Assembly (NCBI RefSeq): GCF_964340395.1
Contig: NC_135567.1
Coordinates: 1,660,109-1,724,108, forward strand
DNA: 64,000 nucleotides
Direction: 5' to 3'
Source of the DNA: Glandiceps talaboti
Taxonomy: Eukaryota > Hemichordata > Enteropneusta > Spengelidae
The notes under the pieces were generated by a model. The model had not been told where the DNA came from and did not search any database. It saw nothing but the letters and a program-made list of their open reading frames with translations. Every line of letters starts with the position of its first letter. Position 1 is the stretch's first letter. This document shows, one piece after another, positions 16,533-53,183 of the stretch. A program made the position numbers and the translations under genes.

Positions 16533-16731
16533 TCACAACTCAGATTTCTTGGTTTTCTTCTTAGTGTCTTTTACTTTGCCTTTCCTAGCGATCTGTGCAG
16601 CACCAGGAAAGTTTTGGTTTTCAAAGGAGACTTCCTCACATCGTTCCTGCTGAATGAGGAAATCTTTAATCTCCCAGGCTTTACTTCCATCATTTAGTAC
16701 AATCAGTATTCTATCATCACCTATCACATAT
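16533..16731 (-). CDS. mesd: MESD coding exon 3 (C-terminus with KSEL)
   Basis: The acceptor is TTTTTTTTATTGATTTCAG ending at 16732, with a normal pyrimidine tract. The exon completes the split Arg and reads YVIGDDRILIVLNDGSKAWE and onward to a Lys-rich tail, KSEL and TGA at 16535-16533. The WEIKDFL block is conserved across MESD/boca proteins. The terminal KSEL is a plausible KDEL-receptor ligand, as vertebrate MESD ends in a related tetrapeptide. The 3' UTR follows at 16532 to about 16400. Confidence 0.94.
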
Positions 16732-19700: not shown

Positions 19701-22700
19701 TGACATTTCAAATATTCCTGCTACTGGCAGTGTGCCAAGATGTGACATTTGAAATATCCCCACTACTGGCAGTGTACCAAGATGTGACATTTCAAATTTT
19801 CCCGCTACTGGCAGTGTGCCAAGATGTGACATTTGAAATATCCCCACTACTGGCAGTGTACCAAGATGTGACATTTGAAATATTCCAACTACTGGCAGTG
19901 TGCCAAGATGTGACATTTGAAATATCCCCACTACTGGCAGTGTGCCAAGATGTGACATTTGAAATATTCCAACTACTGGCAGTGTGCCAAGATGTGACAT
20001 TTGAAATATTCCCACTACTGGCAGTGTACCAAGATGTGACATTTGAAATAATCCCACTCCTGGCAGTGTGCCAAGATGTGACATTTGAAATATTCCCACT
20101 ACTGGCAGTGTGCCAAGATGTGACATTTGAAATATTCCAACTACTGGCAGTGTACCAAGATGTGACATTTGAAATATTCCCACTCCTGGCAGTGTGCCAA
20201 GATGTGACATTTGAAATATTCCCACTACTGGCAGTGTGCCAAGATGTGACATTTGAAATAATCCCACTCCTGGCAGTGTGCCAAGATGTGACATTTGAAA
20301 TATCCCCACTACTGGCAGTGTGCCAAGTCATGACATTTGAAATATTCCCACTACTGGCAGTGTACCAAGATGTGACATTTGAAATAATCCCACTCCTGGC
20401 AGTGTGCCAAGATGTGACATTTGAAATATTCCAACTACTGGCAGTGTGCCAAGATGTGACATTTGAAATATTCCCACTACTGGCAGTGTGCCAAGATGTG
20501 ACATTTGAAATATTCCCACTGCCCAAACCATCAAATATAATGATACACTTTATAGAATTCATCAAAAAACAAAAGTTTCAAATAATTTGGCCACTAGGTG
20601 CAATGAGGTAAGGGCCACTAGGTGCAATGAGGTAAGGGCCACTAGGAGCAATGAGGTGAGGGCCACTAGGAGTAATGAGGTGAGGGCCACTAGGTGCAAT
20701 GAGGTAAGGGCTACTAGGTGCAATGAGGTAAGGGCCACTAGGTGCAATGAGGTAAGGGCCACTAGGTGCAATGAGGTAAGGGCCACTAGGTGCAATGAGG
20801 TAAGGGCCACTAGGAGTAATGAGGTAAGGGCCACTAGGTTCAATGAGGTAAGGGCCACTAGGAGTAATGAGGTAAGGGCCACTAGGTGCAATGAGGTAAG
20901 GGCCACTAGGTGTAATGAGGTAAGGGCCACTAGGTGCAATGAGGTAAGGGCCACTAGGTGCAATGAGGTAAGGGCCACTAGGAGTAATGAGGTAAGGGCC
21001 ACTAGGAGCAATGAGGTAAGGGCCACTAGGAGTAATGAGGTGAGGGCCACTAGGTGCAATGAGGTAAGGGCCACTAGGTGTAATGAGGTAAGGGCCACTA
21101 GGTGCAATGAGGTAAGGGCCACTAGGTGTAATGAGGTAAGGGCCACTAGGTGCAATGAGGTAAGGGCCACTAGGAGCAATGAGGTGAGGACCACTAGGAG
21201 CAATGAGGTGAGGGCCACTAGGTGCAATGAGGTAAGGGCCACAAGGTGCAATGAGGTAAGGGCCACTAGGTGCAATGAGGTAAGGGCCACAAGGTGCAAT
21301 GAGGTAAGGGCCACTAGGTGCAATGAGGTAAGGGCCACTAGGTGCAATGAGGTGAGGGCCACTAGGAGTAATGAGGTAAGGGCCACTAGGAGTAATGAGG
21401 TGAGGGCCACTAGGTGCAATGAGGTCAGGGCCACTAGGTGCAATGAGGTAAGGGCTACTAGGAGTAATGAGGTAAGGGCCACTAGGAGTAATGAGGTGAG
21501 GGCCACTAGGAGTAATGAGGTGAGGGCCACTAGGTGCAATGAGGTGAGGGCTACTAGGTGCAATGAGGTGAGGGCTACTAGGAGCAATGAGGTGAGGGCC
21601 ACTAGGTGCAATTGGGTAAGGGCTACTAGGTGCAATGAGGTGAGGGCCACTAGGAGTAATGAGGTGAGGGCCACTAGGAGTAATGAGGTAAGGTCTACTA
21701 GGTGCAATGAGGTGAGGGCTACTAGGAGTAATGAGGTGAGGGCCACTAGGAGTAATGAGGTAAGGGCTACTAGGTGCAATGAGGTAAGGGCTGCTAGGAG
21801 TAATGAGGTAAGGGCCACTAGGAGTAATGAGGTAAGGGCCACTAGGAGTAATGAGGTGAGGGCCACTAGGAGTAATGAGGTGAGGGCCACCAGGAGTAAT
21901 GAGGTAAGGGCTACTAGGAGTAATGAGGTGAGGGCCACTAGGAGTAATGAGGTAAGGGCTACTAGGTGCAATGAGGTAAGGGCTACTAGGAGTAATGAGG
22001 TAAGGGCTACTAGTAGTAATGAGGTGAGGGCCACTAGGAGTAATGAGGTAAGGGCTACTAGGTGCAAAGAGGTAAGGGCTACTAGGAGTAATGAGGTAAG
22101 GGCCACTAGGAGTAATGAGGTAAGGGCCACTAGGAGTAATGAGGTGAGGGCCACTAGGTGCAATGAGGTAAGGGCCACTAGGTGCAATGAGGTGAAGGCC
22201 ACTAGGAGTAATGAGGTAAGGGCTACTAGGAGTAATGAGGTGAGGGCCACTAGGAGTAATGAGGTAAGGGCCACTAGGTGCAATGAGGTGAGGGCCACTA
22301 GGTGCAATGAGGTAAGGGCCACTAGGTGCAATGAGGTAAGGGCCACTAGGTGCAATGAGGTGAAGGCTACTAGGAGTAATGAGGTAAGGGCCACTTGGAG
22401 TAATGAGGTGAGGGCCACTAGGAGTAATGAGGGTAGGGCCACTAGGAGTAATGAGGTGAGGGCCACTAGGTGCAATGAGGTGAGGGCTACTAGGTGCAAT
22501 GAGGTGAGGGCCACTAGGAGTAATGAGGTAAGGGCCACTAGGTGCAATGAGGTGAGGGCCACTAGGTGCAATGAGGTAAGGGCCACTAGGTGCAATGAGG
22601 TGAGGGCCACTAGGAGTAATGAGGTAAGGGCCACTAGGTGCAATGAGGTAAGGGCCACTAGGAGTAATGAGGTAAGGGCTACTAGGTGCAATGAGGTAAG

Positions 22701-25700
22701 GGCTACTAGGTGCAATGAGGTAAGGGCCACTAGGAGTAATGAGGTAAGGGCCACTACGTGCAATGAGGTAAGGGCCACTAGGAGGAATGAGGTGAGGGCC
22801 ACTAGGAGTAATGAGGTAAGGGCCACTAGGTGCAATGAGGTAAGGGCCACTAGGAGTAATGAGGTGAGGGCCACTAGGTGCAATGAGGTAAGGGCTACTA
22901 GGAGTAATGAGGTAAGGGCCACTAGGTGCAATGAGGTAAGGGCTACTAGGAGTAATGAGGTAAGGGCCACTAGGAGTAATGAGGTAAGGGCCACTAGGTG
23001 CAATGAGGTAAGGGCTACTAGGAGCAATGAGGTGAGGGCCACTAGGTGCAATGAGGTAAGGGCTACTAGGTGCAATGAGGTAAGGGCTACTAGGTGCTAT
23101 GAGGTAAGGGCTACTAGGAGTAATGAGGTAAGGGCCACTAGGAGTAATGAGGTGAGGGCCACTAGGAGTAATGAGGTAAGGGCCACTAGGTGCAATGAGG
23201 TAAGGGCCACTAGGAGTAATGAGGTGAGGGCCACTAGGTGCAATGAGGTAAGGGCCACTAGGTGCAATGAGGTTAGGGCCACTAGGTGCAATGAGGTAAG
23301 GGCTACTAGGTGCAATGAGGTAAGGGCTACTAGGTGCAATGAGGTAAGGGCTACTAGGAGCAATGAGGTGAGGGCCACTAGGTGCAATGAGGTTAGGGCC
23401 ACTAGGTGCAATGAGGTAAGGGCTACTAGGTGCAATGAGGTAAGGGCTACTAGGTGCAATGAGGTAAGGGCTACTAGGAGTAATGAGGTAAGGGCCACTA
23501 GGAGTAATGAGGTGAGGGCCACTAGGAGTAATGAGGTAAGGGCCACTAGGAGTAATGAGGTAAGGGCCACTAGGAGTAATGAGGTAAGGGCCACTAGGTG
23601 CAATGAGGTAAGGGCCACTAGGTGCAATGAGGTGAGGGCCACAAATGTTGAATGTCAGAGCTTACTTCGAAAAATTTCTCATTTTACAATTACTCAAGGC
23701 TATGCTATTTGCAGTCTGTCCAAAATAGTTGTTATTTTATTTTCACAGATGTGACTTTCAGAAACTAACCCAGCTGCCTTGGAAGAATTTTCAATGACTG
23801 CTTCATGTGAGTATGTCTGAGGTTGCCATTTGAATGGTTTGTGATTGTCACATGATTGGCTGTGATTGTCATAGAATTGGCTATGATTGTCACGTGATTG
23901 TCATGTGATTGGCATGTGGTGGCTATGATTGTCGTGTGATTGGCTGTAATTGCCATTTGATTGGCGGTGATTGTCATGTCACGGTGACTATGATTGTCAT
24001 GTGATTGGTTGTGATTGGCTATGACTGTCTTGTGATTGGCTGTTATTGCCACGTGGTGGCTATGATTGCCATGTGATTTGCTGGGATTGCCATGTGCTGG
24101 CTATGATCGCCATGTGATTGGCTGTGATTGTCATGTGATTTGCTGTGATTGCCATGTGCTGGCTATGATTGCCATGTGATTGGATATGATCGTCATGTGA
24201 TTGGCTGTGATTGTCATGTGATTTGCTGTGATTGCCATGTGCTGGCTAAGATCGCCATGTGATTGGCTGTGATTGTCATGTGATTTGCTGTGATTGCCAT
24301 GTGCTGGCTATGATTGCCATGTGATTGGATATGATCGTCATGTGATTGGCTGTGATTGTCATGTGATTTGCTGTGATTGCCATGTGCTGGCTAAGATCGC
24401 CATGTGATTGGCTGTGATTGTCATGTGATTGGCTGTGATTGCCATGTGCTGGCTATGATCGCCATGTGATTTGTTGTGATTGCTATGTGATTGGCTGTGA
24501 TTGTCATGTGATTTGCTGTGATTGCCATGCGGTGGCTGTGATTGCCATGTGATTGGCTGTGATTGCCATGTGCTGGCTATCATTGTCATGTGATTGTCTA
24601 TGGTTGTCATGTGATTGGCTATGGTTGTCATGTGATTGATTCACAGTGGGTAACTGGAATATGGGTCTTGCTGATCATATCCTTCCACCTCGAGAATATA
24701 ACCCAATATCATGGCAAAAATATATATATACATGTATGTAAATGACATGCAAATGAGAGTGTGCATGAAATCACATGATCACAGTGTGACTTTGGGCAAA
24801 TTTGCTGTGAGCCAAATCACAGTGTGGATACTGAGAGCTTTATTTACACTCATGCTTGCAGACAGAGCTCAAGATCTGTAATTTCTTACCATGTCATTTC
24901 ATAGTGTCTATTAAATAGTATAGATTGTCATAATGTAGTAATTTCTTACCGTGTCAATTCATAGTGTCTATTAAATAGCATAGATTGTCATAATGTAGTA
25001 ATTTCTTACCGTGTCAATTCATAGTGTGCATTAAATAGAATAGATTGTCATAATGTAGTAATTTCTTACCGTGTCAATTCATAGTGTGCATTAAATAGAA
25101 TAGATTGTCATAATGTAGTAATTTCTTACCGTGTCATTTCATAGTGTCTATTAAATAGTATAGATTGTCATAATGTAGTAATTTCTTACCGTGTCAATTC
25201 ATAGTGTCTATTAAATAGAATAGATTGTCATAATGTAGTAATTTCTTACCGTGTCATTTCATAGTGTCTATTAAATAGCATAGATTGTCATAATATAGTA
25301 ATTTCTTACCGTGTCATTTCATAGTGTCTATTAAATAGCATAGATTGTCATAATGTAGTAATTTCTTACCGTGTCATTTCATAGTGTCTATTAAATAGCA
25401 TAGATTGTCATAATGTAGTAATTTCTTACCGTGTCATTTCATAGTGTCTATTAAATAGTATAGATTATCATAATGTAGTAATTTCTTACCGTGTCATTTC
25501 ATAGTGTCTATTAAATAGCATAGATTGTCATAATGTAGTAATTTCTTACCGTGTCAATTCATAGTGTCTATTAAATAGCACAGATTGTCATAATGTAGTA
25601 ATTTCTTACCGTGTCATTTCATAGTGTCTATTAAATAGCATAGATTGTCATAATGTAGTAATTTCTTACCGTGTCATTTCATAGTGTCTATTAAATACCA

Positions 25701-28700
25701 TAGATTGTCATAATATAGTAATTTCTTACCGTGTCATTTCATAGTGTCTATTAAAAAGTATAGATTGTCATAATGTAGTAATTTCTTACCGTGTCATTTC
25801 ATAGTGTCTATTAAATAGCATAGATTGTCATAATGTAGTAATTTCTTACCGTGTCATTTCATAGTGTCTATTAAATAGCATAGATTGTCATAATGTAGTA
25901 ATTTCTTACCGTGTCATTTCATAGTGTCTATTAAATAGCATAGATTGTCATAATGTAGTAATTTCTTACCGTGTCATTTCATAGTGTCTATTAAATAGTA
26001 TAGATTGTCATAATGTAGTAATTTCTTACCGTGTCATTTCATAGTGTCTATTAAATAGCATAGATTGTCATAATGTAGTAATTTCTTACCGTGTCAATTC
26101 ATAGTGTCTATTAAATAGAATAGATTGTCATAATGTAGTAATTTCTTACCGTGTCATTTCATAGTGTCTATTAAATAGCATAGATTGTCATAATGTAGTA
26201 ATTTCTTACCGTGTCATTTCATAGTGTCTATTAAATAGTATAGATTGTCATAATGTAGTAATTTCTTACCGTGTCATTTCATAGTGTCTATTAAATAGCA
26301 TAGATTGTCATAATGTAGTAATTTATTACCGTGTCAATTCATAGTGTGCATTAAATACCATAGATTGTCATAATGTAGTAATTTCTTACCGTGTCATTTC
26401 ATAGTGTCTATTAAATAGTATAGATTGTCATAATGTAGTAATTTCTTACCGTGTCATTTCATAGTGTCTATTAAATAGTATAGATTGTCATAATGTAGTA
26501 ATTTCTTACCGTGTCAATTCATAGTGTCTATTAAATAGCATAGATTGTCATAATGTAGTAATTTCTTACCGTGTCATTTCATAGTGTCTATTAAATAGCA
26601 TAGATTGTCATAATGTAGTAATTTCTTACCGTGTCATTTCATAGTGTCTATTAAATAGCATAGATTATCATAATGTAGTAATTTCTTACCGTGTCATTTC
26701 ATAGTGTCTATTAAATAGCATAGATTGTCATAATGTAGTAATTTCTTACCGTGTCATTTCATAGTGTCTATTAAATAGTATAGATTGTCATAATGTAGTA
26801 ATTTCTTACCGTGTCATTTCATAGTGTCTATTAAATAGTATAGATTGTCATAATGTAGTAATTTCTTACCGTGTCAATTCATAGTGTCTATTAAATAGAA
26901 TAGATTGTCATAATGTAGTAATTTCTTACCGTGTCATTTCATAGTGTCTATTAAATAGCATAGATTGTCATAATATAGTAATTTCTTACCGTGTCATTTC
27001 ATAGTGTCTATTAAATAGCATAGATTGTCATAATGTAGTAATTTCTTACCGTGTCATTTCATAGTGTCTATTAAATAGCATAGATTGTCATAATGTAGTA
27101 ATTTCTTACCGTGTCATTTCATAGTGTCTATTAAATAGTATAGATTATCATAATGTAGTAATTTCTTACCGTGTCATTTCATAGTGTCTATTAAATAGCA
27201 TAGATTGTCATAATGTAGTAATTTCTTACCGTGTCAATTCATAGTGTCTATTAAATAGCACAGATTGTCATAATGTAGTAATTTCTTACCGTGTCATTTC
27301 ATAGTGTCTATTAAATAGCATAGATTGTCATAATGTAGTAATTTCTTACCGTGTCATTTCATAGTGTCTATTAAATACCATAGATTGTCATAATATAGTA
27401 ATTTCTTACCGTGTCATTTCATAGTGTCTATTAAAAAGTATAGATTGTCATAATGTAGTAATTTCTTACCGTGTCATTTCATAGTGTCTATTAAATAGCA
27501 TAGATTGTCATAATGTAGTAATTTCTTACCGTGTCATTTCATAGTGTCTATTAAATAGCATAGATTGTCATAATGTAGTAATTTCTTACCGTGTCATTTC
27601 ATAGTGTCTATTAAATAGCATAGATTGTCATAATGTAGTAATTTCTTACCGTGTCATTTCATAGTGTCTATTAAATAGTATAGATTGTCATAATGTAGTA
27701 ATTTCTTACCATGTCATTTCATAGTGTCTATTAAATAGCATAGATTGTCATAATGTAGTAATTTCTTACCGTGTCAATTCATAGTGTCTATTAAATAGAA
27801 TAGATTGTCATAATGTAGTAATTTCTTACCGTGTCATTTCATAGTGTCTATTAAATAGCATAGATTGTCATAATGTAGTAATTTCTTACCGTGTCAATTC
27901 ATAGTGTCTATTAAATAGCATAGATTGTCATAATGTAGTAATTTCTTACCGTGTCAATTCATAGTGTCTATTAAATAGCATAGATTGTCATAATGTAGTA
28001 ATTTCTTACCGTGTCATTTCATAGTGTCTATTAAATAGCATAGATTGTCATAATGTAGTAATTTCTTACCGTGTCATTTCATAGTGTCTATTAAATAGTA
28101 TAGATTGTCATAATGTAGTAATTTCTTACCGTGTCATTTCATAGTGTCTATTAAATAGCATAGATTGTCATAATGTAGTAATTTATTACCGTGTCAATTC
28201 ATAGTGTGCATTAAATACCATAGATTGTCATAATGTAGTAATTTCTTACCGTGTCATTTCATAGTGTCTATTAAATAGTATAGATTGTCATAATGTAGTA
28301 ATTTCTTACCGTGTCATTTCATAGTGTCTATTAAATAGTATAGATTGTCATAATGTAGTAATTTCTTACCGTGTCAATTCATAGTGTCTATTAAATAGCA
28401 TAGATTGTCATAATGTAGTAATTTCTTACCGTGTCATTTCATAGTGTCTATTAAATAGCATAGATTGTCATAATGTAGTAATTTCTTACCGTGTCATTTC
28501 ATAGTGTCTATTAAATAGCATAGATTATCATAATGTAGTAATTTCTTACCGTGTCATTTCATAGTGTCTATTAAATAGTATAGATTGTCATAATGTAGTA
28601 ATTTCTTACCGTGTCATTTCATAGTGTCTATTAAATAGTATAGATTGTCATAATGTAATAATTTCTTACCGTGTCATTTCATAGTGTCTATTAAATAGTA

Positions 28701-31700
28701 TAGATTGTCATAATGTAGTAATTTCTTACCGTGTCATTTCATAGTGTCTATTAAATAGCATAGATTGTCATAATGTAGTAATTTCTTACTGTGTCATTTC
28801 ATAGTGTCTATTAAATACCATAGATTGTCATAATGTAGTAATTTCTTACCGTGTCAATTCATAGTGTCTATTAAATAGAATAGATTGTCATAATGTAGTA
28901 ATTTCTTACTGTGTCAATTCATAGTGTCTATTAAATAGCATAGATTGTCATAATGTAGTAATTTCTTACCGTGTCATTTCATAGTGTGCATTAAATACCA
29001 TAGATTGTCATAATGTAGTAATTTCTTACCGTGTCAATTCATAGTGTCTATTAAATAGCATAGATTATCATAATGTAGTAATTTCTTACCGTGTCATTTC
29101 ATAGTGTCTATTAAATAGCATAGATTGTCATAATGTAGTAATTTCTTACCGTGTCAATTCATAGTGTCTATTAAATAGTATAGATTGTCATAATGTAGTA
29201 ATTTCTTACCGTGTCAATTCATAGTGTGCATTAAATACCATAGATTGTCATAATGTAGTAATTTCTTACCGTGTCATTTCATAGTGTCTATTAAATAGCA
29301 TAGATTGTCATAATGTAGTAATTTCTTACCGTGTCAATTCATAGTGTCTATTAAATAGCATAGATTGTCATAATGTAGTAATTTCTTACCGTGTCAATTC
29401 ATAGTGTGCATTAAATACCATAGATTGTCATAATGTAGTAATTTCTTACCGTGTCATTTCATAGTGTCTATTAAATAGTATAGATTGTCATAATGTAGTA
29501 ATTTCTTACTGTGTCATTTCATAGTGTCTATTAAATAGTATAGATTGTCATAATGTAGTAATTTCTTACCGTGTCATTTCATAGTGTGCATTAAATACCA
29601 TAGATTGTCATAATGTAGTAATTTCTTACCGTGTCATTTCATAGTGTCTATTAAATAGTATAGATTGTCATAATGTAGTAATTTCTTACCGTGTCATTTC
29701 ATAGTGTCTATTAAATAGTATAGATTGTCATAATGTAGTAATTTCTTACCGTGTCAATTCATAGTGTCTATTAAATAGAATAGATTGTCATAATGTAGTA
29801 ATTTCTTACCGTGTCATTTCATAGTGTCTATTAAATAGCATAGATTGTCATAATGTAGTAATTTCTTACCGTGTCAATTCATAGTGTCTATTAAATAGCA
29901 TAGATTGTCATAATGTAGTAATTTCTTACCGTGTCATTTCATAGTGTCTATTAAATAGCATAGATTGTCATAATGTAGTAATTTCTTACCGTGTCATTTC
30001 ATAGTGTCTATTAAATAGTATAGATTGTCATAATGTAGTAATTTCTTACCGTGTCATTTCATAGTGTCTATTAAATAGCATAGATTGTCATAATGTAGTA
30101 ATTTATTACCGTGTCAATTCATAGTGTGCATTAAATACCATAGATTGTCATAATGTAGTAATTTCTTACCGTGTCATTTCATAGTGTCTATTAAATAGTA
30201 TAGATTGTCATAATGTAGTAATTTCTTACCGTGTCATTTCATAGTGTCTATTAAATAGTATAGATTGTCATAATGTAGTAATTTCTTACCGTGTCAATTC
30301 ATAGTGTCTATTAAATAGCATAGATTGTCATAATGTAGTAATTTCTTACCGTGTCATTTCATAGTGTCTATTAAATAGCATAGATTGTCATAATGTAGTA
30401 ATTTCTTACCGTGTCATTTCATAGTGTCTATTAAATACCATAGATTGTCATAATGTAGTAATTTCTTACCGTGTCATTTCATAGTGTCTATTAAATAGTA
30501 TAGATTGTCATAATGTAGTAATTTCTTACCGTGTCATTTCATAGTGTCTATTAAATAGTATAGATTGTCATAATGTAGTAATTTCTTACCGTGTCATTTC
30601 ATAGTGTCTATTAAATAGTATAGATTGTCATAATGTAGTAATTTCTTACCGTGTCATTTCATAGTGTCTATTAAATAGCATAGATTGTCATAATGTAGTA
30701 ATTTCTTACCGTGTCATTTCATAGTGTCTATTAAATACCATAGATTGTCATAATGTAGTAATTTCTTACCGTGTCATTTCATAGTGTCTATTAAATAGCA
30801 TAGATTGTCATAATGTAGTAATTTCTTACTGTGTCAATTCATAGTGTCTATTAAATAGCATAGATTGTCATAATGTAGTAATTTCTTACCGTGTCATTTC
30901 ATAGTGTGCATTAAATACCATAGATTGTCATAATGTAGTAATTTCTTACCGTGTCAATTCATAGTGTCTATTAAATAGCATAGATTATCATAATGTAGTA
31001 ATTTCTTACCGTGTCATTTCATAGTGTCTATTAAATAGCATAGATTGTCATAATGTAGTAATTTCTTACCGTGTCAATTCATAGTGTCTATTAAATAGTA
31101 TAGATTGTCATAATGTAGTAATTTCTTACCGTGTCAATTCATAGTGTGCATTAAATACCATAGATTGTCATAATGTAGTAATTTCTTACCGTGTCATTTC
31201 ATAGTGTCTATTAAATAGCATAGATTGTCATAATGTAGTAATTTCTTACCGTGTCAATTCATAGTGTCTATTAAATAGCATAGATTGTCATAATGTAGTA
31301 ATTTCTTACCGTGTCAATTCATAGTGTGCATTAAATACCATAGATTGTCATAATGTAGTAATTTCTTACCGTGTCATTTCATAGTGTCTATTAAATAGTA
31401 TAGATTGTCATAATGTAGTAATTTCTTACTGTGTCATTTCATAGTGTCTATTAAATAGTATAGATTGTCATAATGTAGTAATTTCTTACCGTGTCATTTC
31501 ATAGTGTGCATTAAATACCATAGATTGTCATAATGTAGTAATTTCTTACCGTGTCATTTCATAGTGTCTATTAAATAGTATAGATTATCATAATGTAGTA
31601 ATTTCTTACCGTGTCATTTCATAGTGTCTATTAAATAGTATAGATTGTCATAATGTAGTAATTTCTTACCGTGTCATTTCATAGTGTCTATTAAATAGCA

Positions 31701-34700
31701 TAGATTTTCATAATGTAGTAATTTCTTACCGTGTCATTTCATAGTGTCTATTAAATAGAATAGATTGTCATAATGTAGTAATTTCTTACCGTGTCATTTC
31801 ATAGTGTCTATTAAATAGTATAGATTATCATAATGTAGTAATTTCTTACCGTGTCATTTCATAGTGTCTATTAAATAGCATAGATTGTCATAATGTAGTA
31901 ATTTCTTACCGTGTCATTTCATAGTGTCTATTAAATAGTATAGATTGTCATAATGTAGTAATTTCTTACCGTGTCATTTCATAGTGTCTATTAAATAGCA
32001 TAGATTGTCATAATGTAGTAATTTCTTACCGTGTCATTTCATAGTGTCTATTAAATAGCATAGATTGTCATAATGTAGTAATTTCTTACCGTGTCATTTC
32101 ATAGTGTCTATTAAATAGTATAGATTGTCATAATGTAGTAATTTCTTACTGTGTCATTTCATAGTGTCTATTAAATAGTATAGATTGTCATAATGTAGTA
32201 ATTTCTTACCGTGTCATTTCATAGTGTGCATTAAATACCATAGATTGTCATAATGTAGTAATTTCTTACCGTGTCATTTCATAGTGTCTATTAAATAGTA
32301 TAGATTGTCATAATGTAGTAATTTCTTACCGTGTCATTTCATAGTGTCTATTAAATAGCATAGATTGTCATAATGTAGTAATTTCTTACCGTGTCAATTC
32401 ATAGTGTCTATTAAATAGAATAGATTGTCATAATGTAGTAATTTCTTACCGTGTCATTTCATAGTGTCTATTAAATAGCATAGATTGTCATAATGTAGTA
32501 ATTTCTTACCGTGTCAATTCATAGTGTCTATTAAATAGCATAGATTGTCATAATGTAGTAATTTCTTACCGTGTCATTTCATAGTGTCTATTAAATAGCA
32601 TAGATTGTCATAATGTAGTAATTTCTTACCGTGTCATTTCATAGTGTCTATTAAATAGTATAGATTGTCATAATGTAGTAATTTCTTACCGTGTCATTTC
32701 ATAGTGTCTATTAAATAGCATAGATTGTCATAATGTAGTAATTTATTACCGTGTCAATTCATAGTGTGCATTAAATACCATAGATTGTCATAATGTAGTA
32801 ATTTCTTACCGTGTCATTTCATAGTGTCTATTAAATAGTATAGATTGTCATAATGTAGTAATTTCTTACCGTGTCATTTCATAGTGTCTATTAAATAGTA
32901 TAGATTGTCATAATGTAGTAATTTCTTACCGTGTCAATTCATAGTGTCTATTAAATAGCATAGATTGTCATAATGTAGTAATTTCTTACCGTGTCATTTC
33001 ATAGTGTCTATTAAATAGCATAGATTGTCATAATGTAGTAATTTCTTACCGTGTCATTTCATAGTGTCTATTAAATACCATAGATTGTCATAATGTAGTA
33101 ATTTCTTACCGTGTCATTTCATAGTGTCTATTAAATAGTATAGATTGTCATAATGTAGTAATTTCTTACCGTGTCATTTCATAGTGTCTATTAAATAGTA
33201 TAGATTGTCATAATGTAGTAATTTCTTACCGTGTCATTTCATAGTGTCTATTAAATAGTATAGATTGTCATAATGTAGTAATTTCTTACCGTGTCATTTC
33301 ATAGTGTCTATTAAATAGCATAGATTGTCATAATGTAGTAATTTCTTACCGTGTCATTTCATAGTGTCTATTAAATACCATAGATTGTCATAATGTAGTA
33401 ATTTCTTACCGTGTCATTTCATAGTGTCTATTAAATAGCATAGATTGTCATAATGTAGTAATTTCTTACTGTGTCAATTCATAGTGTCTATTAAATAGCA
33501 TAGATTGTCATAATGTAGTAATTTCTTACCGTGTCATTTCATAGTGTGCATTAAATACCATAGATTGTCATAATGTAGTAATTTCTTACCGTGTCAATTC
33601 ATAGTGTCTATTAAATAGCATAGATTATCATAATGTAGTAATTTCTTACCGTGTCATTTCATAGTGTCTATTAAATAGCATAGATTGTCATAATGTAGTA
33701 ATTTCTTACCGTGTCAATTCATAGTGTCTATTAAATAGTATAGATTGTCATAATGTAGTAATTTCTTACCGTGTCAATTCATAGTGTGCATTAAATACCA
33801 TAGATTGTCATAATGTAGTAATTTCTTACCGTGTCATTTCATAGTGTCTATTAAATAGCATAGATTGTCATAATGTAGTAATTTCTTACCGTGTCAATTC
33901 ATAGTGTCTATTAAATAGCATAGATTGTCATAATGTAGTAATTTCTTACCGTGTCAATTCATAGTGTGCATTAAATACCATAGATTGTCATAATGTAGTA
34001 ATTTCTTACCGTGTCATTTCATAGTGTCTATTAAATAGTATAGATTGTCATAATGTAGTAATTTCTTACTGTGTCATTTCATAGTGTCTATTAAATAGTA
34101 TAGATTGTCATAATGTAGTAATTTCTTACCGTGTCATTTCATAGTGTGCATTAAATACCATAGATTGTCATAATGTAGTAATTTCTTACCGTGTCATTTC
34201 ATAGTGTCTATTAAATAGTATAGATTATCATAATGTAGTAATTTCTTACCGTGTCATTTCATAGTGTCTATTAAATAGTATAGATTGTCATAATGTAGTA
34301 ATTTCTTACCGTGTCATTTCATAGTGTCTATTAAATAGCATAGATTTTCATAATGTAGTAATTTCTTACCGTGTCATTTCATAGTGTCTATTAAATAGAA
34401 TAGATTGTCATAATGTAGTAATTTCTTACCGTGTCATTTCATAGTGTCTATTAAATAGTATAGATTATCATAATGTAGTAATTTCTTACCGTGTCATTTC
34501 ATAGTGTCTATTAAATAGCATAGATTGTCATAATGTAGTAATTTCTTACCGTGTCATTTCATAGTGTCTATTAAATAGTATAGATTGTCATAATGTAGTA
34601 ATTTCTTACCGTGTCATTTCATAGTGTCTATTAAATAGCATAGATTGTCATAATGTAGTAATTTCTTACCGTGTCATTTCATAGTGTCTATTAAATAGCA

Positions 34701-37700
34701 TAGATTGTCATAATGTAGTAATTTCTTACCGTGTCATTTCATAGTGTCTATTAAATAGTATAGATTGTCATAATGTAGTAATTTCTTACCGTGTCATTTC
34801 ATAGTGTCTATTAAATAGTATAGATTGTCATAATGTAGTAATTTCTTACCGTGTCATTTCATAGTGTCTATTAAATAGTATAGATTGTCATAATGTAGTA
34901 ATTTCTTACCGTGTCATTTCATAGTGTCTATTAAATAGTATAGATTGTCATAATGTAGTAATTTCTTACCGTGTCATTTCATAGTGTCTATTAAATAGCA
35001 TAGATTGTCATAATGTAGTAATTTCTTACCGTGTCATTTCATAGTGTCTATTAAATAGAATAGATTGTCAAAATGTAGTAATTTCTTACCATGTCATTTC
35101 ATAGTGTCTATTAAATAGCATAGATTGTCATAATGTAGTAATTTCTTACCGTGTCATTTCATAGTGTCTATTAAATAGAATAGATTGTCATAATGTAGTA
35201 ATTTCTTACCGTGTCATTTCATAGTGTCTATTAAATAGTATAGATTGTCATAATGTAGTAATTTCTTACCGTGTCATTTCATAGTGTCTATTAAATAGAA
35301 TAGATTGTCATAATGTAGTAATTTCTTACCGTGTCATTTCATAGTGTCTATTAAATAGCATAGATTGTCATAATGTAGTAATTTCTTACCGTGTCAATTC
35401 ATAGTGTCTATTAAATAGCATAGATTGTCATAATGTAGTAATTTCTTACCGTGTCATTTCATAGTGTCTATTAAATAGCATAGATTGTCATAATGTAGTA
35501 ATTTCTTACCATGTCATTTCATAGTGTCTATTAAATAGCATAGATTGTCATAATGTAGTAATTTCTTACCGTGTCATTTCATAGTGTCTATTAAATAGTA
35601 TAGATTGTCATAATGTAGTAATTTCTTACCATGTCATTTCATAGTGTCTATTAAATAGCATAGATTGTCATAATGTAGTAATTTCTTACCGTGTCATTTC
35701 ATAGTGTCTATTAAATAGCATAGATTGTCATAATGTAGTAATTTCTTACCGTGTCAATTCATAGTGTCTATTAAAAAGTATAGATTGTCATAATGTAGTA
35801 ATTTCTTACCGTGTCATTTCATAGTGTGCATTAAACAGCATAGATTGCCATAATGTAGTAATTTCTTCAGTTTCTGCCCTTGTAGGATTACCAGATACTG
35901 TAACAAACACCATCAGAGTTCTGCCTTTCTTTGTAGTTTTAATCAAACTCTCTGGATCCTTAGCATCTAATTTACTCAAGTCAAGCGGCTCTTTTGGTCT
36001 CAAGTGTTCCGGTAAATCATCAGGGTCCTGCTCGTCTTCATTTTCCTAGTTATGGGGTAATAATAATGTAATAATAGTGATGGGGTAATAATAATGTAAT
36101 AATAGTGATGGGGTAATAATGTAATAATAGTGATGGGGTAATAATAATGTAATAATAGTGATGGGATAATAATAATGTAATAATGGTGATGGGGTAATAA
36201 CGATGTAATAATAGTGATGGGATAATAATAATGTAATAATAGTGATGGGATAATAATAATGTAATAATAGTGATGGGGTAATAATAATGTAATAATAGTT
36301 ATAGGGTAATAATAATGTAATAATAGTGATAGGGTAATAATAATGTAATAATAGTGATGGGGTAATAATAATGTAATAATAGTGATGGGGTAATAATAAT
36401 GTAATAATAGTGATGGGGTTAATATAATAATGTAATAATAGTTAAAGGGTAATAATAATGTAATAATAGTGATAGGGTAATAATGTTATAATAGTAATAT
36501 AATAATGTAATAATAGTTAAAGGGTAATAATAATGTAATAATAGTGATAGGGTAATAATGTTATAATAGTAATAGGGTAATAATAATGTAATAATAGTTA
36601 TAGAGTAATAATAATGTAATAATAGTGATAGGGTAATAATAATGTAATAATAGTTATAGGGTAATAATAATGTAATAATAGTTATAGAGTAATAATAATG
36701 TAATAATAGTGATGGGATAATAAATGTAATAATAGTTATAGGGTAATAATAATGTAATAATAGTGATAGAGTAATAATAATGTAATAATAGTTAAAGGGT
36801 AATAATAATGTAATAATAGTGATAGGGTAATAATGTTATAATTGTAATAGGGTAATAATAATGTAATAATAGTTATAGAGTAATAATAATGTAATAATAG
36901 TGATAGGGTAATAATAATGTAATAATAGTTATAGGGTAATAATAATGTAATAATAGTTATAGAGTAATAATAATGTAATAATAGTGATGGGATAATAAAT
37001 GTAATAATAGTGATTGGGTAATAATAATGTAATAATAGTTATAGGGTAATAATAATGTAATAATAGTTATAGGGTAATAAATGTAATAATAATGATGGGA
37101 TAATAATAATGTAATAATAATGATGGGATAATAATAATGTAATAATAATGATGGGATAATAATAATGTAATAATAATGATGGGATAATAATAATGTAATA
37201 ATAATGATGGGGTTAATATAATAATGTAATAATAGTTAAAGGGTAATAATAATGTAATAATAGTGATAGGGTAACAATAATGTAATAATAGTGATAGGGT
37301 AATAATAATGTAATAATAGTTATAGAGTAATAATAATGTAATAATAGTGATAGGGTAATAATAATGTAATAATAGTGATAGGGTAATAATAATGTAATAA
37401 TAGTTATAGGGTAATAAATGTAATAATAATGATGGGATAATAATAATGTAATAATAATGATGGGATAATAATAATGTAATAATAGTGATGGGATAATAAT
37501 AATGTAATAATAGTTATAGGGTAATAATAATGTAATAATAGTGATGGGATAATAATAATGTAATAATTGTACTGTATACATATTGTATATAGAACTGTAC
37601 TGAGTGTACATGTATATTGTACTGTATACATTGTATATAGAACTGTACTGGGTGTACATGTATATTGTACTGTATACATTGTATATAGAACTGTACTGAG

Positions 37701-40700
37701 TGTACATGTATATTGTACTGTATACATTGTATATAGAACTGTACTGGGTGTACATGTATATTGTACTGTATATATTGTATATAGAACTGTACTGGGTGTA
37801 CATGTATATTGTACTGTATATATTGTATATAGAACTGTACTGAGTGTACATGTATATTGTACTGTATACATTGTATATAGAACTGTACTGGGTGTATATG
37901 TATATTGTACTGTATACATTGTATATAGAACTGTACTGGGTGTACATGTATATTGTACTGTATACATTGTATATAGAACTGTACTGGGTGTACATGTATA
38001 TTGTACTGTATATATTGTATATAGACCTGTACTGAGTGTACATGTATATTGTACTGTATATATTGTATATAGAACTGTACTGGGTGTACATGTATATTGT
38101 ACTGTATACATTGTATATAGAACTGTACTGGGTGTACATGTATATTGTACTGTATACATATTGTATATAGAACTGTACTGGGTGTACATGAATATTGTAC
38201 TGTATACACATTGTATATAGAACTGTACTGGGTGTACATGTATATTGTACTGTATATATTGTATATAGAACTGTACTGGGTGTATATGTATATTGTACTG
38301 TATACATTGTATATAGAACTGTACTGGGTGTACATGTATATTGTACTGTATACATTGTATATAGAACTGTACTGGGTGTATATGTATATTGTACTGTATA
38401 CATTGTATATAGAACTGTACTGGGTGTACATGTATATTGTACTGTATACATTGTATATACAACTGTACTGGGTGTACATGTATATTGTACTGTATACATT
38501 GTATATACAACTGTACTGGGTGTACATGTATATTGTACTGTATACATTGTATATACAACTGTACTGGGTGTACATGTATATTGTACTGTATACATTGTAT
38601 ATAGAACTGTACTGGGTGTACATGTATATTGTACTGTATACATTGTATATAGAACTGTACTGGGTGTACATGTATATTGTACTGTATACATTGTATATAG
38701 AACTGTACTGGGTGTACATGTATATTGTACTGTATATATTGTATATAGAACTATACTGGGTGTACATGTATATTGTACTGTATACATATTGTATATAGAA
38801 CTGTACTGGGTGTACATGTATATTGTACTGTATACATTGTATATAGAACTGTACTGGGTGTACATGTATATTGTACTGTATACATTGTATATAGAACTGT
38901 ACTGGGTGTATATGTATATTGTACTGTATATATTGTATATAGAACTGTACTGGGTGTATTTTATTATGTATATTGTACTGTATACATTGTATATAGAACT
39001 GTACTGGGTGTACATGTATATTGTACTGTATACATATTGCATATAGAACTGTACTGGGTGTACATGTATATTGTACTGTATACATTGTATATAGAACTGT
39101 ACTGGGTGTATATGTATATTGTACTGTATACATTGTATATAGAACTGTACTGGGTGTATATGTATATTGTACTGTATACATTGTATATACAACTGTACTG
39201 GGTGTACATGTATATTGTACTGTATACATTGTATATAGAACTGTACTGGGTGTACATGTATATTGTACTGTATACATTGTATATAGAACTGTACTGGGTG
39301 TACATGTATATTGTACTGTATATATTGTATATAGAACTGTACTGGGTGTACATGTATATTGTACTGTATACATTTTATATAGAACTGTACTGGGTGTACA
39401 TGTATATTGTACTGTATACATTGTATATAGAACTGTACTGGGTGTACATGTATATTGTACTGTATATATTGTATATAGAACTGTACTGGGTGTACATGTA
39501 TATTGTACTGTATACATATTGTATATAGAACTGTACTGGGTGTATATGTATATTGTACTGTATATATTGTATATAGAACTGTACTGGGTGTATATGTATA
39601 TTGTACTGTATACATTGTATATAGAACTGTACTGGGTGTACATGTATATTGTACTGTATACATTGTATATAGAACTGTACTGGGTGTACATGTATATTGT
39701 ACTGTATACATTGTATATAGAACTGTACTGGGTGTACATGTATATTGTACTGTATACATTGTATATAGAACTGTACTGGGTGTACATGTATATTTTACTG
39801 TATACATTGTATATAGAACTGTACTGGGTGTACATGTATATTGTACTGTATACATTGTATATAGAACTGTACTGGGTGTATATGTATATTGAACTGTATA
39901 CATTGTATATACAACTGTACTGGGTGTACATGTATATTGTACTGTATACATATTGTATATAGAACTGTACTGGGTGTACATGTATATTTTACTGTATACA
40001 TTGTATATAGAACTGTACTGGGTGTACATGTATATTGTACTGTATACATTGTATATAGAACTGTACTGGGTGTATATGTATATTGTACTGTATACATTGT
40101 ATATAGAACTGTACTGGGTGTACATGTATATTGTACTGTATACATTGTATATAGAACTGTACTGGGTGTATATGTATATTGTACTGTATACATTGTATAT
40201 AGAACTGTACTGGGTGTACATGTATATTTTACTGTATACATTGTATATAGAACTGTACTGGGTGTACATGTATATTGTACTCTATACATTGTATATAGAA
40301 CTGCACTGGGTGTATATGTATATTGTACTGTATACATTGTATATACAACTGTACTGGGTGTACATGTATATTGTACTGTATACATATTGTATATAGAACT
40401 GTACTGGGTGTATATGTATATTGTAGTGTATACAACTGTACTGGGTGTACATGTATATTGTACTGTATACATATTGCAAATAGAACTGTACTGGGTGTAC
40501 ATGTATATTGTACTGTATACATTGTATATAGAACTATACTGGGTGTACATGTATATTGTACTGTATATATTGTATATAGAACTGTACTGGGTGTATATGT
40601 ATATTGTACTGTATATATTGTATATAGAACTGTACTGGGTGTACATGTATATTGTACTGTATACATTGTATATAGAACTGTACTGGGTGTACATGTATAT

Positions 40701-43700
40701 TGTACTGTATACATTGTATATACAACTGTACTGGGTGTACATGTATATTGTACTGTATACATATTGTATATAGAACTGTACTGAGTGTACATGTATATTG
40801 TACTGTATACATTGTATATAGAACTGTACTGGGTGTACATGTATATTGTACTGTATATATTGTATATAGAACTGTACTGGGTGTATATGTATATTGTACT
40901 GTATATATATTGCATATAGAACTGTACTGGGTGTACATGTATATTGTACTGTATATATTGTAAGAACTGTACTGGGTGTACATGTATATTGTACTGTATA
41001 CATTGTATATAGAACTGTACTGGGTGTATATGTATATTGTACTGTATACATATTGTATATAGAACTGTACTGGGTGTACATGTATATTGTACTGTATATA
41101 TTGTATATAGAACTGTACTGGGTGTATATGTATATTGTACTGTATACATTGTATATACAACTGTACTGGGTGTACATGTGTATTGTACTGTATACATATT
41201 GTATATAGAACTGTACTGGGTGTACATGTATATTGTACTGTATACATATTGTATATAGAACTCTACTGGGTGTACATGTATATTGTACTGTATATATTGT
41301 ATATAGAACTCTACTGGGTGTACATGTATATTTTACTGTATACATTGTATATAGAACTGTACTGGGTGTACATGTATATTTTACTGTATACATTGTATAT
41401 AGAACTGTACTGAGTGTATATGTATATTGTACTGTATACATTGTATATAGAACTGTACTGGGTGTATATGTATATTGTACTGTATACATTGTATATAGAA
41501 CTGTACTGGGTGTACATGTATATTGTACTGTATACATATTGTATATAGAACTGTACTGGGTGTACATGTATATTGTACTGTATACATTGTATATAGAACT
41601 GTACTGGGTGTATATGTATATTGAACTGTATACATTGTATATACAACTGTACTGGGTGTACATGTACATTGTACTGTATACATATTGTATATAGAACTGT
41701 ACTGGGTGTACATGTACATTTTACTGTATACATATTGTATATAGAACTGTACTGGGTGTACATGTATATTGTACTGTATACATATTGTATATAGAACTGT
41801 ACTGGGTGTACATGTATATTTTACTGTATACATTGTATATAGAACTGTACTGGGTGTACATGTATATTGTACTGTATACATTGTATATAGAACTGTACTG
41901 GGTGTATATGTATATTGTACTGTATACATTGTATATAGAACTGTACTGGGTGTACATGTATATTGTACTGTATACATTGTATATAGAACTGTACTGGGTG
42001 TATATGTATATTGTACTGTATACATTGTATATAGAACTGTACTGGGTGTACATGTATATTTTACTGTATACATTGTATATAGAACTGTACTGGGTGTACA
42101 TGTATATTGTACTCTATACATTGTATATAGAACTGCACTGGGTGTATATGTATATTGTACTGTATACATTGTATATGGAACTGTACTGGGTGTACATGTA
42201 TATTGTACTGTATACATATTGTATATAGAACTGTACTGGGTGTATATGTATATTGTAGTGTATACAACTGTACTGGGTGTACATGTATATTGTACTGTAT
42301 ACATATTGCAAATAGAACTGTACTGGGTGTACATGTATATTGTACTGTATACATTGTATATAGAACTGTACTGGGTGTACATGTATATTGTACTGTATAC
42401 ATTGTATATAGAACTGTACTGGGTGTACATGTATATTGTACTGTATATATTGTATATAGAACTGTACTGGGTGTATATGTATATTGTACTGTATACATTG
42501 TATTACAATGTATATAGAACTGTACTGGGTGTACATGTATATTGTACTGTATACATATTGCATATAGAACTGTACTGAGTGTACATGTATATTGTACTGT
42601 ATATATTGTAAGAACTGTACTGGGTGTACATGTATATTGTACTGTATACATTGTATATAGAACTGTACTGGGTGTATATGTATATTGTACTGTATACATA
42701 TTGTATATAGAACTGTACTGGGTGTACATGTATATTGTACTGTATACATATTGTATATAGAACTGTACTGGGTGTACATGTATATTGTACTGTATACATA
42801 TTGTATATAGAACTGTACTGGGTGTATATGTATATTGTACTGTATACATTGTATATAGAACTGTACTGGGTGTACATGTATATTGTACTGTATACATTGT
42901 ATATAGAACTGTACTGGGTGTACATGTATATTGTACTGTATATATTGTATATAGAACTGTACTGGGTGTACATGTATATTGTACTGTATACATATTGTAT
43001 ATAGAACTGTACTGGGTGTACATGTATATTGTACTGTATACATTGTATATAGAACTGTACTGGGTGTACATGTATATTGTACTGTATACATATTGTATAT
43101 AGAACTGTACTGGGTGTACATGTATATTATACTGTATATATTGTATATAGAACTGTACTGGGTGTATATGTATATTGTACTGTATACATTGTATATAGAA
43201 CTGTACTGGGTGTACATGTATATTGTACTGTATACATTGTATATAGAACTGTACTGGGTGTACATGTATATTGTACTGTATATATTGTATATAGAACTGT
43301 ACTGGGTGTACATGTATATTGTACTGTATACATTGTATATAGAACTGTACTGGGTGTACAAGTATATTGTACTGTATACATATTGTATATAGAACTGTAC
43401 TGGGTGTATATGTATATTGTACTGTATACATTGTATATAGAACTCTACTGGGTGTACATGTATATTGTACTGTATACATTGTATATAGAACTGTACTGGG
43501 TGTACATGTATATTGTACTGTATATATTGTATATAGAACTGTACTGGGTGTACATGTATATTGTACTGTATACATATTGTATATAGAACTGTACTGGGTG
43601 TACATGTATATTGTACTGTATATATTGTATATAGAACTGTACTGGGTGTACATGTATATTATACTCTATATATTGTATATAGAACTGTACTGGGTGTATA

Positions 43701-46700
43701 TGTATATTGTACTGTATACATTGTATATAGAACTGTACTGGGTGTACATGTATATTGTACTGTATACATTGTATATAGAACTGTACTGGGTGTATATGTA
43801 TATTGTACTGTATACATATTGTATATAGAACTGTACTGGGTGTACATGTATATTGTACTGTATATATTGTATATAGAACTGTACTGGGTGTACATGTATA
43901 TTATACTCTATATATTGTATATAGAACTGTACTGGGTGTATATGTATATTGTACTGTATACATTGTATATAGAACTGTACTGGGTGTACATGTATATTAT
44001 ACTCTATATATTGTATATAGAACTGTACTGGGTGTATATGTATATTGTACTGTATACATTGTATATAGAACTGTACTGGGTGTACATGTATATTGTACTG
44101 TATATATTGTATATAGAACTGTACTGGGTGTACATGTATATTGTACTGTATACATTGTATATAGAACTGTACTGGGTGTACATGTATATTGTACTGTATA
44201 CATTGTATATAGAACTGTACTGGGTGTACATGTATATTGTACTGTATATATTGTATATAGAACTGTACTGGGTGTACATGTATATTGTACTGTATACATT
44301 GTATATACAACTGTACTGAGTGTACATGTATATTGTACTGTATACATTGTATATAGAACTGTACTGGGTGTACATGTATATTGTACTGTATATATTGTAT
44401 ATAGAACTGTACTGGGTGTACATGTATATTGTACTGTATACATTGTATATAGAACTGTACTGGGTGTACATGTATATTATACTGTATATATTGTATATAG
44501 AACTGTACTGGGTGTATATGTATATTGTACTGTATACATTGTATATAGAACTGTACTGGGTGTACATGTATATTGTACTGTATACATTGTATATAGAACT
44601 GTACTGGGTGTACATGTATATTGTACTGTATATATTGTATATAGAACTGTACTGGGTGTACATGTATATTGTACTGTATACATTGTATATAGAACTGTAC
44701 TGGGTGTACATGTATATTGTACTGTATACATTGTATATGGAACTGTACTGGGTGTACATGTATATTGTACTGTATACATATTGTATATAGAACTGTACTG
44801 GGTGTACATGTATATTATACTGTATATATTGTATATAGAACTGTACTGGGTGTACATGCATATTGTACTGTATATATTGTATATAGAACTGTACTGGGTG
44901 TATATGTATATTGTACTGTATACATTGTATATAGAACTGTACTGGGTGTACATGTATATTGTACTGTATACATTGTATATAGAACTGTACTGGGTGTACA
45001 TGTATATTGTACTGTATATATTGTATATAGAACTGTACTGGGTGTACATGTATATTGTACTGTATACATTGTATATAGAACTGTACTGGGTGTACATGTA
45101 TATTGTACTGTATACATATTGTATATAGAACTGTACTGGGTGTATATGTATATTGTACTGTATATATTGTATATAGAACTGTACTGGGTGTATATGTATA
45201 TTGTACTGTATACATATTGTATATAGAACTGTACTGGGTGTATATGTATATTGTACTGTATACATTGTATATAGAACTGTACTGGGTGTATATGTATATT
45301 GTACTGTATACATATTGTATATAGAACTGTACTGGGTGTACATGTATATTGTACTGTATATATTGTATATAGAACTGTACTGGGTGTACATGTATATTGT
45401 ACTGTATATATTGTATATAGAACTGAACTGGGTGTATATGTATATTGTACTGTATACATTGTATATAGAACTGTACTGGGTGTATATGTATATTGTACTG
45501 TATACATATTGTATATAGAAGTTAACTGTACTGGGTTTACATGTATATTGTACTGTATACATTGTATATAGAACTGTACTGGGTGTACATGTATATTGTA
45601 CTGTATATATTGTATATAGAACTGTACTGGGTGTACATGTATATTGTACTGTATATATTGTATATAGAACTGTACTGGGTGTACATGTATATTGTACTGT
45701 ATACATTGTATATAGAACTGTACTGGGTGTACATGTATATTGTACTCTATACATTGTATATAGAACTGTACTGGGTGTACATGTATATTGTACTGTATAC
45801 ATTGTATATAGAACTGTACTGGGTGTACATGTATATTGTACTGTATACATTGTATATAGAACTGTATTGAGTGTACATGTATATTGTACTGTATATATTG
45901 TATATAGAACTGTACTGGGTGTACATGTATATTGTACTGTATACATTGTATATAGAACTGTACTGAGTGTACATGTATATTGTACTGTATACATTGTATA
46001 TAGATCTGTACTGGGTGTACAATGTATATTGTACTGTATACATTGTATATAGAACTGTACTGGGTGTACATGTATATTGTACTGTATACATTGTATATAG
46101 AACTGAACTGGGTGTACATGTATATTGTACTGTATACATTGTATATAGAACTGTACTGGGTTTACATGTATATTGTACTGTATACATATTGCATATAGAA
46201 CTGTACTGGGTGTACATGTATATTGTACTGTATACATTGTATATAGAACTGTACTGAGTGTACATGTATATTGTACTGTATACATATTGTATATAGAACT
46301 GTACTGGGTGTACATGTATATTGTACTGTATATATTGTATATAGAACTGTACTGGGTGTACATGTATATTGTACTGTATATATTGCATATAGAACTGTAC
46401 TAGGTGTACATGTATATTGTAGTGTATACATTGTATATAGAACTGTACTGGGTGTATATGTATATTGTACTGTATATATTGTATATAGAACTGTACTGGG
46501 TGTACATGTATATTGTACTGTATACATTGTATATAGAACTGTACTGAGTGTACATGTATATTGTACTGTATACATTGTATATAGAACTGTACTGGGTGTA
46601 CATGTATATTGTACTGTATACATTGTATATAGAACAGTACTGGGTGTACATGTATATTGTACTGTATACATTGTATATAGAACTGAACTGGGTGTACATG

Positions 46701-52700: not shown

Positions 52701-53183
52701 TATTGTATATAGAACTGTACTGGGTGTATATGTATATTGTACTGTATACATATTGCATATAGAACTGTACTGTCACCTTGCAGTTTCACGATATAAGTTT
52801 TTGACCAATACAGCTTCATCTACAAATTCCCAGATGCATCCCTATTTTATTTTCAGCCCAATCTGCTCAGTATTTTTGGAACTATATATTTTTGACAAAA
52901 AGACACATTTTTAGACCTAATTTGCATATCACTGATGGGATCATCATGTTATGAACACTTCTTAATATAAACACTCTGAAGAACGTGCAGACCACATTTT
53001 CAGATTGATCTGCTGAATAGTTTTTGAGTTAAGTTGTTTGACCAAAAAATCACATTTTTTTACCTAAATCACACATTGGTGGTAAGATCATTTTGATTTG
53101 AACAATTTCCCAAGTAGACACCAAAGGTAATAGACCCACTAAATATCAAAAATTAGTTTGGTGGTTTTTGACTTCACAAGTTG

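Follow-up and report, generated by a model that had tools for sequence, protein, structure and literature searches.

Probable exon stuttering outside vertebrates: an AT-rich 60-bp tandem array resembling an exon end and its splice donor in MESD intron 2 of Glandiceps talaboti

How does a tandem repeat arise that begins inside a coding exon and multiplies the splice donor of this exon, and how does the gene persist beside it? The question is raised by a 64,000-nucleotide stretch of DNA (hereafter the window) of Glandiceps talaboti (Hemichordata, Enteropneusta, Spengelidae). On its minus strand, the window contains a MESD gene that is complete with three exons, and intron 2 of this gene opens with 182 units of 60 bp followed by a 10-bp remnant. 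The elements concerned are given below in the direction of MESD transcription (slashes mark exon borders).

54777 to 54947, minus strand: coding part of MESD exon 1, from the ATG to the donor GAG/GTAAGC; coding sequence of all exons joined, 201 amino acids
35810 to 36045, minus strand: MESD exon 2, 236 nt, entry phase 0, exit phase 2
35808 to 35867, minus strand: source segment (unit 0), formed by the final 58 nt of exon 2 and the GT of its donor, 56/60 identical to the unit consensus
35858 to 35867, minus strand: exon copy of a 10-bp direct repeat, AAGAAATTAC
24888 to 35807, minus strand: 182 copies of 60 bp in the intron, free of indels and falling into 27 full-length types
24878 to 24887, minus strand: 10-bp remnant at the end of the array, AAGAAATTAC, interpreted as the direct repeat's ancestral copy in the intron
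16533 to 16731, minus strand: MESD exon 3, coding part (ttgatttcag/ATATGTG to the stop after KSEL)

The joined coding sequence contains no internal stop, and its 201-amino acid translation is identical over the full length to the database protein P0010, which is named LDLR chaperone boca-like, Glandiceps talaboti, and whose record lies on a 21.4-Mb contig. In P0010, exon 3 follows directly on the original end of exon 2. Exon 2 is matched by solved MESD structures (best E-value 1.8e-29). The GC content is 39.4% in exon 2, 39.6% at the third codon positions of MESD, 33.0% in the window, and 27.5% in the array.

Tandem Repeats Finder (TRF) reported a single 60-bp array on the minus strand (24878-35867), the 10,990 bp of which equal 183 × 60 + 10. 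The register is fixed throughout, and each unit departs from the consensus at no more than four of the 60 positions. An earlier note on this DNA had described about 182 copies of the exon 2 end with its donor, aligned with four substitutions. Both statements hold: 182 exact 60-bp units were counted, a copy number that comes from the assembly alone, and positions 20, 32, 39, and 40 are those at which the exon copy and the intronic consensus disagree. The change at position 20 turns the Trp codon of the exon into TGA, the one at position 32 affects a Leu codon and is synonymous, and those at positions 39 and 40 convert the Ala codon into an Arg codon; outside of positions 20 to 40, exon and consensus are identical. 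The agreement of 56 out of 60 positions is above chance, as 100 shuffled consensuses, aligned on one strand only, reached 31.6 matches on average and 36 at most, and elsewhere in the window, with the array and exon 2 set aside, the consensus was matched at 32/60 at best on either strand. When the 15 array unit consensuses were compared in any rotation with the MESD coding exons, only the 60-mer stood out (54/60), the other 14 showing identities of 0.45 to 0.64 on one strand or the other; an exon origin of these other arrays was therefore rejected. The consensus unit contains neither GGG nor CCC. The tandem array is real. The term satellite, which had been applied to it, is a loose one: the 60-bp repeat within this window is one local minisatellite array.

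The comparison with other MESD proteins supports the exon 2 tail as the source of the array. In an alignment of 129 MESD proteins (nine plus the best 120 of 160 found, the window's own protein included), the Trp and the Asn of the tail are present in 129/129 sequences, the Ala in 110/129, and the last Arg in all 128 sequences with a residue at this place. Ptychodera flava and Saccoglossus kowalevskii display MWQSMLFNAHYELTR and MWQSQLFNAHYEMTR, respectively, at the same place of MESD, with the tails FNAHYELTR and FNAHYEMTR. In contrast to the conserved Trp, TGA stands in place of its codon in 182/182 units, and all of these units contain an in-frame stop. The conservation of Trp, Asn, Ala, and Arg, including the two other hemichordates, indicates that the exon tail is old and the array its offspring, in agreement with the direction and the TGA codons proposed earlier.

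The edges of the array point to the manner of its birth. The period-60 match is sharp on both sides, starting at 35867 and stopping at 24878, and the surplus over whole units is the 10-bp sequence AAGAAATTAC. At the junction, 10 bases match, with mismatches immediately beyond on either side. In twelve array-free stretches of the window, which served as background, direct-repeat runs of at least 10 bp at spacings of 20 to 100 were found in 13 of 630,907 position-and-spacing pairs, and at a spacing of 60 in none of 10,517 positions. Since a plain tandem duplication leaves the flanking direct repeat as surplus, the ancestral intron likely began with GTAAGAAATTACAGATC, so that it had 10 bp in common with exon sequence lying 60 bp further upstream. 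Replication or repair then likely slipped between the two AAGAAATTAC repeats, 60 bp apart across the exon/intron border, and the first extra copy would have been released from coding constraint. A microhomology-mediated tandem duplication of 60 bp, as suggested previously, is thus supported, but with an overlap of 10 bp (AAGAAATTAC) instead of 3. A hairpin as driver of the slippage was rejected: when intronic units 1 and 2 were folded as single-stranded DNA, neither strand gave a better predicted structure than shuffled sequences did (z 0.20 and 0.95). Slippage driven by quadruplexes or GC richness was likewise rejected on the lack of GGG and CCC in the consensus unit.

The further growth of the array can be read from the order of the unit variants, which are arranged as nested block repeats. 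A row of 40 unit types recurs at a spacing of 44 units, which on the DNA is a block repeated without a single mismatch:

29720 to 34789, minus strand: block duplication, the 2,430 bp of 34789-32360 being found again unchanged at 32149-29720, 44 units further on

Further perfect runs extend over 931 bp at a spacing of 28 units and over 787 bp at a spacing of 32 units. Nested blocks and long perfect runs indicate that the array likely grew by block duplication or unequal exchange. Position 20 is A in 182/182 units, and position 32 is A in 179 and T in three of them, the G of the exon occurring in none; most simply, all units descend from one founder that had already diverged from the exon. The bases GC of the exon's Ala codon at positions 39/40 are kept in 19/182 units, so that some units do retain this codon, as had been noticed before. 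In the proposed course of events, a founder with the Trp-to-stop change and the change at position 32 would have given rise to all later units, and the array would have expanded by unequal exchange or block duplication. The stop-bearing form extends to the first intronic unit but spares the exon; the simplest reason is that any exon converted to the array sequence would have acquired the stop and been lost.

Each unit carries a copy of the splice donor. The exon's donor, ACG/GTAAGA, is unchanged in 165/182 units; the remaining forms are ACA/GTAAGA (8), ATG/GTAAGA (5), and ACG/GTAATA (4), and the GT is present in 182/182. For the duplex with the 5' end of U1, -8.2 kcal/mol was predicted for the real donor and the 165 identical copies, and -8.0 kcal/mol for the five ATG forms. 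Of the 208 GT sites in the array, 165 equal the exon's own 9-mer, whereas in the rest of intron 2 one of 376 GT sites is as strong or stronger (-10.4 kcal/mol, at 18851). A transcript spliced at an array donor would run from exon 2 into a TAA right after the exon end. The nine donor columns of the unit are no more conserved than the others (variable in 3/9 and 11/51 columns, respectively; Fisher p = 0.42). The 182 downstream donors are therefore most likely passive passengers rather than a selected donor bank, and selection on them was rejected for lack of excess conservation. The gene most likely survives via its 5'-most donor, defined together with the 236-nt exon, and we infer that this first donor is chosen by exon definition. 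On the MESD strand, the motif AATAAA occurs within the array at 32747, 30107, 28187, and 26327.

The earlier note knew of no described satellite of this kind; however, related structures are already in print, namely exon stuttering and a human minisatellite described in 1995. Exon stuttering, described on chicken dot chromosomes, multiplies the edge of a coding exon, splice site included, within the neighboring intron; 115 chicken genes with 236 such introns have been reported (Hron et al., 2026, PMC12954441). The bird expansions comprise one to 44 copies (median 4) of imperfect units in GC-rich genes located mostly on dot chromosomes, and extensive intraspecies length polymorphism of the introns has been demonstrated. 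Replication stress, quadruplexes, and meiotic conversion are named as possible causes, and high GC content and dot-chromosome recombination are thought by the authors to be the likely drivers (PMC12954441). When the criteria of the chicken screen (hits of at least 20 bp, threshold 42.1 bits; PMC12954441) were applied to MESD, 182 hits were obtained, all from exon 2 to intron 2 on the plus strand, with 67.9 to 91.7 bits; exons 1 and 3 gave no hits, and none of at least 20 bp appeared in 20 shuffles. In 165 hits, the match spans bases 179 to 236 of the exon, 236 being the last; eight end at 235, five end at 234, and four span 182 to 236. The MESD array thus shares with its bird counterparts the direct tandem repetition of a lateral part of a coding exon with the splice site, the source at the exon border, the intact coding exon, and the intron covered mostly by simple repeats. 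It differs from them in the hemichordate host, the 182 indel-free copies, the GC content of 27.5%, and the lack of GGG and CCC in the consensus unit; a GC-rich context, which is an association outside the authors' strict criterion, is absent from the MESD array. We conclude that the array is most likely a case of exon stuttering outside vertebrates and in AT-rich DNA.

The minisatellite of human IFI6 (6-16, G1P3) with multiple splice donors (Turri et al., 1995) is an earlier cousin of the MESD array. According to a citing paper, two downstream repeat units act as donors and give rise to three mRNA species. In both cases, a tandem repeat lies at the end of an exon and provides splice donors with its units, and a unit donor like the exon's own is found in MESD as an identical 9-mer in 165/182 units. 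The MESD unit differs from that of IFI6 in containing 58 nt of coding sequence, the frame of which meets a stop in every unit. The IFI6 unit is shorter, at about 12 bp. In the AGGT model of intron gain by tandem genomic duplication, AGGT is reportedly required on both sides and an additional intron is the outcome. This model resembles the MESD array in that splice signals are copied when coding sequence is duplicated in tandem; unlike in the model, the MESD duplication lies at a donor that was already present, and the gain of an intron is not inferred. Intron gain of this kind is the topic of PMC4974935. Introns built of tandem repeats are also common to MESD and to the giant introns with intronic satellite DNA, reportedly treated by Fingerhut and Yamashita in 2022, in which the repeats are said not to come from the flanking exon. 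Apart from the exon-stuttering study and those publications that cite the IFI6 minisatellite, no other exon-tail arrays were found in the titles and abstract starts of the open-access papers searched, which also yielded nothing useful on tandem repeats of Glandiceps or hemichordates and no more detail on the IFI6 donors.

Slippage birth, a single founder, block growth, passenger donors, and exon stuttering together form the best explanation of the locus, which we consider very probable. The reverse order of events, with the array as the older part that gave rise to the tail of exon 2 or replaced it, would agree with the identity of exon and consensus outside of positions 20 to 40, as partial conversion would leave it. 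It was rejected because the tail residues are conserved across the 129 MESD proteins with two other hemichordates among them, and the stop in all 182 copies speaks against it as well; for the tail as a whole, this origin is contradicted, and we regard it as extremely improbable. An assembly artefact, i.e., a collapsed, expanded, or chimeric array, comes to mind as repeat arrays are where assemblies fail, and the copy number may be off against the true value. The absence of N from the window, the nested block structure of the unit variants, the clean edges of the array on both sides, and the 21.4-Mb contig of the P0010 record make an artefactual array very unlikely. Several points weigh against our interpretation. 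The array structure was taken from the assembly, and first-donor use is deduced from the database protein model P0010. The ancestral single-copy state was derived from the array's own edges, and the 10-bp remnant could in principle be the product of a later edge event. The assignment to exon stuttering is based on the anatomy of the locus, intraspecies length variation being one of the three features given by the authors.

Two further readings assign a role to the copied splice signals. The 165 exact donors might serve as a U1-binding bank or as poison donors that reduce or tune the MESD output via unproductive splicing, or they might shield the long intron from premature polyadenylation. This would fit the share of the exon's 9-mer among the array GT sites (165/208) in comparison with the single site of equal strength among 376 elsewhere in intron 2, the stop that the exon 2 frame hits in every unit, and the AATAAA motifs on the MESD strand, four inside the array and one 34 bp beyond its end (24844). 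The donor columns are, however, not conserved beyond the rest of the unit (p = 0.42), and the uniformity of the units is explained by recent block duplication; a functional array, in either variant, is therefore unlikely. Alternatively, each unit might be a nascent microexon, as the linked change from GC to AG generates the acceptor-like TTTAATAG before the last 18 nt, whose inclusion would add in-frame HYEMTR repeats to the protein. AG directly precedes the 18-nt stretch ending at the donor in 163/182 units, and 158 of these 163 18-mers contain no stop when read in the exon frame and would encode HYEMTR or near variants. The linked change, however, could have occurred once and been multiplied along with the array, the pyrimidine tract, judged by eye and unscored, seems weak, and P0010 contains no such insert, which renders a nascent microexon highly improbable.

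In comparison with exon stuttering in birds, the novelty of the array lies in the lineage, in the copy number (182 in comparison with at most 44 per chicken expansion, i.e., four times the highest number reported for one bird expansion), and in the AT-rich, GGG-free sequence. The occurrence of the stuttering anatomy in hemichordate DNA with 27.5% GC implies that GC richness and quadruplexes would not be required in general, which weakens the GC/quadruplex explanation proposed for birds. The array is also an unusually clean case, with a constant unit length, a 10-bp birth repeat, a single founder, and readable block duplications, and its 165 identical extra donors beside one real donor constitute a natural test of how the spliceosome chooses among identical 5' splice sites. 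A much wider generalization is doubtful: stuttering might be a general animal instability without need for GC richness or quadruplexes, arising here genome-wide in AT-rich introns from border-straddling direct repeats, with the 165-donor bank tuning MESD by unproductive splicing.

The setting of the array is dense in repeats. Taken together, the main TRF rows account for about 79% of the window, for 94.1% of MESD intron 1, and for 89.6% of intron 2; the larger arrays have units of 19 to 64 bp. The density of tandem arrays is strikingly high for gene territory, which makes an array starting across an exon border less surprising than the earlier note held. Between the flanking arrays, a single-copy island of 179 bp (36046-35868) remains in 27.9 kb of arrays. 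Upstream of it lie two other arrays:

36046 to 37567, minus strand: 28-bp array extending up to the exon 2 acceptor
37566 to 52772, minus strand: 48-bp array of intron 1, 15.2 kb

These two are fused at 37566-37567 with no single-copy DNA between them. On the coding strand, the 1,522 nt from 36046 to 37567 contain three G and one AG, which is the acceptor itself, so that the 28-bp array offers no AG competing with the exon 2 acceptor. Selection against AG in this array is not claimed, since about one AG is expected with three G in 1,522 nt. A 24-bp array at 20589-23642 (127 copies) contains GGTAAG in its plus-strand consensus, antisense to MESD.

No known RNA elements were found in the window by Rfam at the gathering score. 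In a Pfam scan of ten open reading frames outside the arrays, the one match over the cut-off was a 349-amino acid reading frame on the plus strand (55897-56946, in-frame ATG at 55942), which is arranged head to head with MESD. It matches talin rod domain-containing protein 1 (PDB 6xz4, E-value 1.2e-87). The human genes TLNRD1/MESDC1 and MESD/MESDC2 are neighbors, too, and the talin-like reading frame beside MESD suggests a conserved synteny with the human pair.

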